Below are positions 20,160-52,764 of a stretch of DNA of 64,000 nt, piece after piece. Under the pieces are notes generated by a model. The model made no database searches, was not told where the DNA came from, and worked only from the letters and a program-made list of their open reading frames with translations. Each line of letters begins with the position of its first letter. Within the stretch, counting starts at the first letter, position 1. Origin of the DNA: an uncultured Sphingomonadales bacterium. GTDB taxonomy: Bacteria; Pseudomonadota; Alphaproteobacteria; Sphingomonadales; Sphingomonadaceae. The translations under genes and the position numbers were made by a program. The stretch covers positions 1 through 64,000 of the forward strand of contig CAIJLZ010000005.1 of assembly GCA_903821605.1 (NCBI GenBank), given 5' to 3'.

Positions 20160-20738
20160 TTATTTTGCGATCTTATCGATCTTATCCTGCAACGCGGCAA
20201 GCTGCGCCTTGAGCGTGCCGAGATCTTCCGCAGCCGCATCCTTGGCCGCCGGCTTTTTTTCAGCCGGGGCAGCAGTGGTCGCCGCAGCAGCGGCACCCGG
20301 ACGGAAAGCGCTGGTGGCAGCGTCGAGGAACGCCATGTTCTGGCGGGCCAGTTCGGCGAACGGACCAGTACCAAACGCCCCTTCCATCGCCGAGCGGAAC
20401 TGTTCCTGATTGCGACGGAACGCGTCCATCGACGATTCGAGATATTGCGGCACCATCGACTGCATCGAATCACCGTACATCGAGATCAACTGACGGAGAA
20501 AATTGACCGGCAGCATATTCGCACCGCGCGATTCTTCGTCCATGATGATCTGGGTCAGCACATTGTGCGTGATGTCATCACCGCTTTTTGCGTCGACGAC
20601 CTTGAAATGCCGGCCTTCGCGGGTCATTTGAGCGAGATTGTCGAGAGTGATGTAAGTCGAGGATTCGGTGTTGTAGAGTCGGCGGTTGGCGTATTTCTTG
20701 ATGACCACGACATCGTCAATATTGGGTGTTCCGGACAT
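20160..20738 (-). CDS. phaR: Polyhydroxyalkanoate synthesis repressor
   Basis: A 192-residue regulator. The PHB/PHA accumulation DNA-binding domain is at residues 10-75 (VVIKKYANRRLYNTESSTYI) and a second conserved module at about 80-125 (GANMLPVNFLRQLI). An Ala-rich linker and a short C-terminal coiled coil follow. PhaR binds both DNA and PHA granules and represses phasin and synthesis genes. GAGGAAGG upstream marks ATG 20738. It is divergent from a PhaC-like gene and near phaA, which fits control of this locus. Confidence 0.93.
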   Translation of the reverse strand: MSGTPNIDDVVVIKKYANRRLYNTESSTYITLDNLAQMTREGRHFKVVDAKSGDDITHNVLTQIIMDEESRGANMLPVNFLRQLISMYGDSMQSMVPQYLESSMDAFRRNQEQFRSAMEGAFGTGPFAELARQNMAFLDAATSAFRPGAAAAATTAAPAEKKPAAKDAAAEDLGTLKAQLAALQDKIDKIAK

Positions 20739-20805
20739 GCAACCACCTTCCTCAAAATTTCGACCACCCATAGCATCAATTATTTCCGCACCGCAACAAA
20801 ATGCG

Positions 20806-52367: not shown

Positions 52368-52595
52368 TTCGCAACCACATTTCTAACTGCATAGACATGA
52401 CGCTGCGGTAAGACGCGGCGAAAAATGGCTATTTTCCGGCGTTTTTGTGCGCGCAATCTAGGTTGCATTTCTTGCAACTGCGGTGGAACGTTTCCTATTT
52501 GCGATAAAATCTGGCGGCCCTACATATGCTGCACCGCACCATAACAAGGCGGGGCGAACAGGGGCGCGACCCTCTGTGATGGAAGGAAGTTCGAT
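52368..52595 (+). promoter_or_regulatory. Upstream region of the micro-ORF unit
   Basis: 228 bases with no gene. It is more AT-rich than its surroundings at 52440-52510 (TTGCATTTCTTGCAA, then GCGATAAAAT), which looks like a promoter region although no hexamer pair with standard spacing can be fixed. A sigma-54 GG-N10-GC pattern was sought and not found. Confidence 0.35.
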
Positions 52596-52670
52596 ATGAA
52601 GCTCGCTGCCATGGCCGCTGCGGCCACCGCGACCCAGATCTTGGTCGTCACCGCCCTGATCTTGGGCTGA
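52596..52670 (+). CDS. Putative 24-residue hydrophobic peptide
   Basis: ATG 52596 follows a very strong ribosome-binding site (GGAAGGAAG, spacing six to nine). It opens 24 codons: MKLAAMAAAATATQ, then ILVVTALILG and TGA. One basic residue and a hydrophobic run make a minimal single-span or leader-like peptide. Two hairpins, the second a strong terminator, follow within 75 bases, so it lies in its own short transcript. I do not recognise it. It could be a small membrane peptide, a leader, or chance translation inside a small RNA. Confidence 0.5.
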   Translation: MKLAAMAAAATATQILVVTALILG

Positions 52671-52690
52671 TACCCCTCTTGCCAGCTTGT

Positions 52691-52711
52691 CCCTGGGGCA
52701 CCGCCCCGGGG
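52691..52711 (+). ncRNA. Stable hairpin in the 3' part of the micro-ORF transcript
   Basis: CCCTGGGG (52691-52698) pairs with CCCCGGGG (52704-52711), with one G-T pair and a five-base loop. It lies between the micro-ORF and its terminator, adding to the impression of a structured small transcript. This is a structure call, not proof of a named RNA. Confidence 0.4.
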
Positions 52712-52723
52712 ATAGCTCTCCCC

Positions 52724-52745
52724 AACCCGCGCTCGCGGGTTTTTT
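52724..52745 (+). terminator. Rho-independent terminator of the micro-ORF unit
   Basis: A 7-bp stem AACCCGC/GCGGGTT (52724-52730, 52735-52741) with a GCTC loop runs into TTTTTT. It points to the plus strand only and sits 20 bases from the panC stop on the other strand. Confidence 0.88.
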
Positions 52746-52764
52746 CATGCCCGGCACATGCGGC

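Follow-up and report, generated by a model that had tools for sequence, protein, structure and literature searches.

Short hydrophobic peptides of sphingomonads as a possible membrane output of the PHB regulator PhaR

Bacterial single-pass membrane microproteins, among them KdpF, CydX, AcrZ and MgrB, often act as regulators or stabilisers of larger membrane proteins. Further points of reference are the phasins, which are amphipathic, the type I toxins, which are small hydrophobic peptides, and the branched-chain attenuators, in which ORF, hairpin and terminator follow one another in this order. In Sinorhizobium, the small RNA MmgR is repressed by PhaR, for which the binding motif WNWD2NYGCRNYGCRNH2WNW is given in PMC12542648. 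The unit described here occupies 52.50-52.75 kb of the window, that is, of the whole stretch of 64,000 nucleotides that was analysed, and combines a promoter-like stretch, a Shine-Dalgarno sequence, a hydrophobic ORF of 24 codons, a hairpin and a terminator, as found by sequence inspection and by ORF and terminator scans. It probably represents a real, if tiny, gene, one of a peptide family whose members are about 27 residues long.

Layout, neighbours and conservation of the unit

The unit is situated between lptA and panC, the latter on the opposite strand and followed by the gene of a MipZ ATPase. Its elements are, in order:

52472..52482, + strand: upstream TTGCAACTGCG element (GCAAYYG at -122), possibly a second, weaker operator
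52499..52504, + strand: -35-like TTGCGA, by eye
52521..52526, + strand: -10-like TACATA, by eye, overlapping the operator
52524..52544, + strand: PhaR-type operator ATATGCTGCACCGCACCATAA, an exact match to WNWDDNYGCRNYGCRNHHWNW
52559..52576, + strand: 5' UTR hairpin CAGGGGCGCGACCCTCTG from a three-sequence consensus fold, with both-sided changes in two pairs
52581..52589, + strand: Shine-Dalgarno sequence GGAAGGAAG, six bases ahead of the ATG
52596..52670, + strand: micro-ORF MKLAAMAAAATATQILVVTALILG, 24 codons plus stop, with one hydrophobic stretch
52684..52717, + strand: 3' GC hairpin, with hardly any change across the genus
52724..52745, + strand: intrinsic terminator from the terminator scan, stem 52724-52741, T run to 52745

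The compact unit proposed in an earlier, sequence-only reading of this DNA was borne out for ORF, Shine-Dalgarno sequence, hairpin and terminator; its promoter is recognised by eye, with a spacing of 16 between the -35-like and -10-like elements, and a strict sigma-70 scan of the unit found none. The RNA of 52520-52750 folds with z = -2.7, a value equalled by 2 of 200 shuffles. That reading had also noted that the unit stands at the usual place of lptB, and the sole over-cut-off match for lptB in the genome is indeed located on another contig (C6). The upstream gene is assigned to lptA by PF03968, which scores over its cut-off, and by the LptA profile, which scores below. The association with lptA proved incidental, because other genera carry the gene in other places: in several genomes next to ORFs resembling purB and dnaJ, and elsewhere next to hemW-like, S4-domain and other ORFs. 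These neighbours are rough longest-ORF choices, and names given to them without a Pfam result are a matter of reading only; among the test pieces searched against Pfam, DnaJ and S4 exceeded their cut-offs, radical-SAM stayed below, and three others had no match.

In both congeners compared, G001 and G002, the unit is present at the same place and can be aligned with that of the window's genome (G000). Their peptides read MKLFEQAA(M/L)AAAATAAQLLVV(T/S)TLILG, start at GTG and comprise 27 residues; relative to them, the window copy lacks three codons (FEQ) after MKL, which leaves 24 residues. Between the ORFs of the window and G002, 13 codons are silently changed and 3 change the residue, with 6, 0 and 13 substitutions at the three codon positions; under a random-placement null, the mean is 10.7 changing codons, and 3 or fewer occurred in 0 of 20,000 trials. 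For G001, the figures are 11 silent and 5 residue-changing codons. Identity between G000 and G002 amounts to 22/23 in the operator stretch, 37/41 in the 3' hairpin, 35/50 in the 5' UTR and 52/75 in the ORF, and both congeners retain a terminator-like stem, with the T run missing. The window unit is thus conserved beyond chance, in its operator stretch, its 3' hairpin and the strong synonymous bias of its ORF. Both arms of the hairpin at 52684-52717 are nearly invariant across the three species, a conservation that the peptide does not explain.

A peptide family of about 27 residues

Relatives were sought with a covariance model of three sequences of the genus, which led to distant relatives and from there to peptide profiles of nine (A5) and 39 (A6) sequences. 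The profile searches covered 298 genomes of the bacterial family and detected members in 43 of them, among these the window's genome; the carriers belong to 18 of the 96 genera. A set of 41 loci was used for counting; it consists of 37 loci at E <= 0.00185 in the A5 search and of four weaker ones (G280, G310, G030 and G285) accepted on inspection. All sequences contained in A6, these four among them, were scored there by a profile built in part from themselves, and their A6 scores, improved in the case of the four, are therefore circular. Three later members from the A6 search (G108, G092 and G109) stand outside the counts of motifs, Shine-Dalgarno sites, folds and T runs in the 41 loci. Inspection led to the rejection of the weak profile matches G320, G140, G011 and a second place in G243, and the A6 matches G220 and G171 were likewise rejected. 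Of the matches of the DNA search beyond the genus, the three inspected (L004, L005 and L008) were dropped as located inside large ORFs, and one match of the RNA model (L043) was false by eye.

For each member, the start codon closest to the profile match was used as the start, the stop being independent of the profile. On this basis, 36 of the 41 loci encode 27 residues, three encode 26, one 28 and one 24, and the set of G108, G092 and G109 has 27, 26 and 28. The consensus, about 27 residues overall, begins with M[K/R]xFE. Among the 34 distinct 27-mers, L19 is present in all, position 5 is glutamate (33) or aspartate (1), Q17 is found in 30 and F4 in 28, and in 33 of them K, R, D and E are absent from residues 7-27. 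The peptides accordingly have a short charged N-terminus and, behind it, a single stretch of some 20 uncharged, hydrophobic residues, with a low mean hydrophobic moment; examined for conservation along one face of the helix, they showed no significant moment (P 0.64). At the codon level, 11 pairs were compared. The six close ones add up to 25 silent codons and 6 changing ones (null mean 21.5, 0 of 20,000), and the remaining five, which are more distant and overlap in part, to 39 silent and 25 changing codons. A Shine-Dalgarno-like site precedes 38 of the 41 ORFs (8.5 expected), and in only 17 is the stop followed within 110 bases by four consecutive T. Mostly single copies were found, and in three genera all genomes are carriers (5/5 in g22, 6/6 in g32 and 6/6 in g64). 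Locus L131 (G180:C163) holds two 27-residue members about 320 bases apart; L197 (G033:C19), with a Shine-Dalgarno and an operator-like sequence, may be a second member in that genome, of 27 residues and strongly diverged (E 0.187), and is treated as tentative and uncounted.

The window's own ORF starts with MKLAAM, without the conserved F4-E5, and has the Q-x-L element as TQILVV within its uncharged hydrophobic stretch. Scored alone, it reaches E 1.7e-5 with A5 and E 0.019 with A6, where a rejected hit lies at 0.016, and both profiles contain the window copy. It is taken as a divergent member of the family, by its position and by its alignment with congeners that score as clear members; lacking F-E, it is atypical and not the best representative. 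Divergent members may escape profile detection. A search at E <= 0.01 of 337 genomes taken from across the class brought up no member; this negative is weak, because the window genome itself misses the threshold and the four other genomes of the bacterial family among the entries listed likewise had no hit with A6. Along different lines, a collection of named genomes, described as covering 84,980 species, was searched with a DNA pattern that joins operator and start. Of the 18 stretches matched, nine do not encode a member and nine encode one of 26-27 residues; the records of the latter are all assigned to Rhizorhabdus or Sphingomonas, for example to Rhizorhabdus histidinilytica and Sphingomonas cavernae. 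Five of the nine member-encoding stretches are records already counted and hence are not independent cases.

That the earlier reading could place the peptide in no family is in line with the library searches: 39 members gave no match in Pfam at E <= 0.1, Phasin_2 (PF09361) included, and NCBIfam returned no convincing match, its single one standing at E 0.068. A profile search of the PDB found nothing at E <= 1, and an Rfam search of the window unit found nothing at gathering score, with weak matches from E 0.3, so a known small RNA was rejected. In the literature, judged by titles and abstract openings, no such peptide was found. By sequence comparison, gene and family are well supported.

PhaR-type operators at the family promoters

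Upstream of the micro-ORF, at 52524-52544, the window matches the full Sinorhizobium PhaR motif; this site had been overlooked in the earlier reading. Three full-motif sites occur in the window, against 0.49 expected, and three or more arose in 2 of 100 shuffles. Besides the site at the micro-ORF, the following features belong here:

1392-1412: PhaR-type site ahead of an ORF of 85 residues (1473-1730, + strand) without Pfam or NCBIfam match
20523-20705, - strand: phaR (PF07879 and PF05233)
20781-20801: PhaR-type site beside phaR, compatible with autoregulation

An alpha/beta-hydrolase-like ORF, just below the Pfam cut-off and of opposite orientation to phaR, overlaps the last of these sites. 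The whole genome of the window contains 28 sites of the full motif, and 12 of the reversed pattern. Of the 17 that were inspected, two lie ahead of Phasin_2 genes and one each ahead of phaR and of the inorganic pyrophosphatase gene ppa; in Sinorhizobium, a ppa homologue is among the predicted PhaR targets. Genes for an FAD-binding protein, a cytochrome c and a porin also have a site ahead of them, and several further sites are located within or next to ORFs to which no link is evident. In view of the ratio of 28 to 12 and of the several sites beside unrelated ORFs, a single PhaR-type site is weak proof.

Across the family, the core TGCRNYGCA, the third of three operator patterns tried, occurs in the 150 bases ahead of the gene in 29 of the 41 members, against 1.9 expected, and downstream in one. 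The looser YGCRNYGCR occurs upstream of 32 (8.65 expected) and downstream of six, and the full 21-base motif of Sinorhizobium upstream of only six (0.17 expected) and downstream of none. The four rejected profile matches have neither core nor full motif. Since nine of the 41 loci came from the window's genus (three) or were found by the operator-bearing model (six), the core was recounted on the other 32, which did not come from that model, and was present upstream in 20 and downstream in none. The element GCAAYYG lies 20-220 bases upstream in 30 of the 41 members (4.7 expected). The second base (A) of the -10-like element is retained in 23 of the 29 members with operator core; sequences resembling the window's -35 (TTGCG) are visible by eye in many members, and the alignment shows no conserved column there.

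The core is missing in 12 of the 41 members, including five of six in genus g64, and control may therefore differ between lineages. In the g64 members L103, L106, L122 and L126, GTCGCAGGGCAACG paired with CGTTGCCCTGCG is found upstream in place of the operator core. One should also bear in mind that PhaR is encoded in 289 and PhaC_N in 284 of the 298 genomes of the bacterial family, and that all 43 carriers have both, a co-occurrence which is uninformative because both are near universal; the peptide family itself is patchy, and no member was detected in the majority of the genomes that have phaR and phaC. An open search for operators with a TAT box, a pattern too strict in that it misses the window's own site, gave hits in 7 of 104 genomes, and under the filter applied only the one in G119 led to a family member. 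At L180 and L182 (Hyphomicrobiaceae, Rhizobiales records), a PhaR-like box precedes ORFs that start with MNPFELQAEL and have no Pfam match. Taken together, it is motif evidence that suggests control of the microprotein gene by PhaR.

Proposed role and comparison with known systems

The reading to which we give somewhat better than even odds is that of a single-pass membrane microprotein, switched on as PHB granules titrate the repressor PhaR. The monocistronic gene would encode a microprotein of typically 27 residues and would be repressed by PhaR; as PHB accumulates, the granules would draw PhaR to themselves, and expression would set in together with that of the phasin genes. The peptide, whose membrane location is suggested by its hydrophobicity, would insert into the inner membrane with its N-terminus inside and might bind a membrane protein through Q17-x-L19 and small residues, such that the activity of the partner is adjusted to the state of carbon storage. 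That the ORF is a genuine gene encoding a small peptide, as the earlier reading anticipated, is supported by the conserved frame, the Shine-Dalgarno sequence, the codon-level selection and the relatives; the membrane part of that claim is the predicted one.

The PhaR-type site common to the microprotein and phasin genes could also point to a mini-phasin, a peptide that coats or anchors to PHB granules instead of the membrane. We consider this unlikely, given the long uncharged stretch, the low mean hydrophobic moment and the near-fixed, bilayer-fitting length of the peptides, as opposed to amphipathic phasins, and given that none of 39 members matched Pfam. Quite improbable, too, is a PhaR-controlled regulatory RNA in the manner of MmgR, with the ORF secondary or the transcript dual in function, although the unit is short and strongly folded, the 3' hairpin exceeds the ORF in identity between G000 and G002, and folding better than shuffles (z < -1.5) was found in 33 of the 41 3' regions (19 of the 5' UTRs and 9 of the ORFs). 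Against it stand the strong synonymous bias of the ORF, the lack of an Rfam match at gathering score, and the fact that between genera the peptide remains recognisable and the UTR sequences, by eye, do not. The dual-function RNA envisaged earlier thus finds backing within the genus and loses it across genera: as the hairpin is better conserved than the ORF, an RNA role additional to the peptide is possible in the window's genus.

Size and hydrophobicity would fit a type I toxin-like peptide with an antisense RNA, which we nevertheless judge very unlikely, since the gene is distributed by genus and mostly in single copy, the consensus peptide had no match in a plasmid search with low-complexity filtering on, and among phage families (PHROG) only two were weakly matched, by three members (E 0.042 and 0.07). 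Attenuation of a downstream gene by a leader peptide, with codons rich in I, L and V followed by hairpin and terminator as in branched-chain attenuators, was rejected as extremely improbable: panC, which comes next, is encoded on the minus strand, dnaJ-like ORFs are likewise opposite in several relatives, and the neighbours are not constant between genera.

We return to the single-pass membrane microprotein under PhaR. It seems an even bet that this undescribed membrane microprotein family is an output of the PHB regulator in sphingomonads, signalling stored carbon to the membrane. For a gene without a matching model in the libraries searched, there are now a testable family and a specific candidate regulator, and should control by PhaR hold true, the storage-polymer regulon would extend to a membrane microprotein in addition to phasins and enzymes. 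The near-fixed length of 27 residues and the invariant L19 make the peptide a compact subject for partner finding.

With KdpF, CydX, AcrZ and MgrB, the family shares the very small size and the single hydrophobic helix, and it differs from them in having neither a Pfam nor a convincing NCBIfam match, no constant neighbour gene, and a PhaR-type site. The phasins (PF09361) have the PhaR-type motif at their promoters in the window genome, as does the microprotein gene, whereas the microproteins are set apart by 24-28 residues, a low hydrophobic moment and the lack of a Phasin_2 match. MmgR of Sinorhizobium meliloti, as described in PMC12542648, is similarly a short unit downstream of a PhaR site; in contrast to it, the window unit has no Rfam match at gathering score and carries a conserved coding frame.
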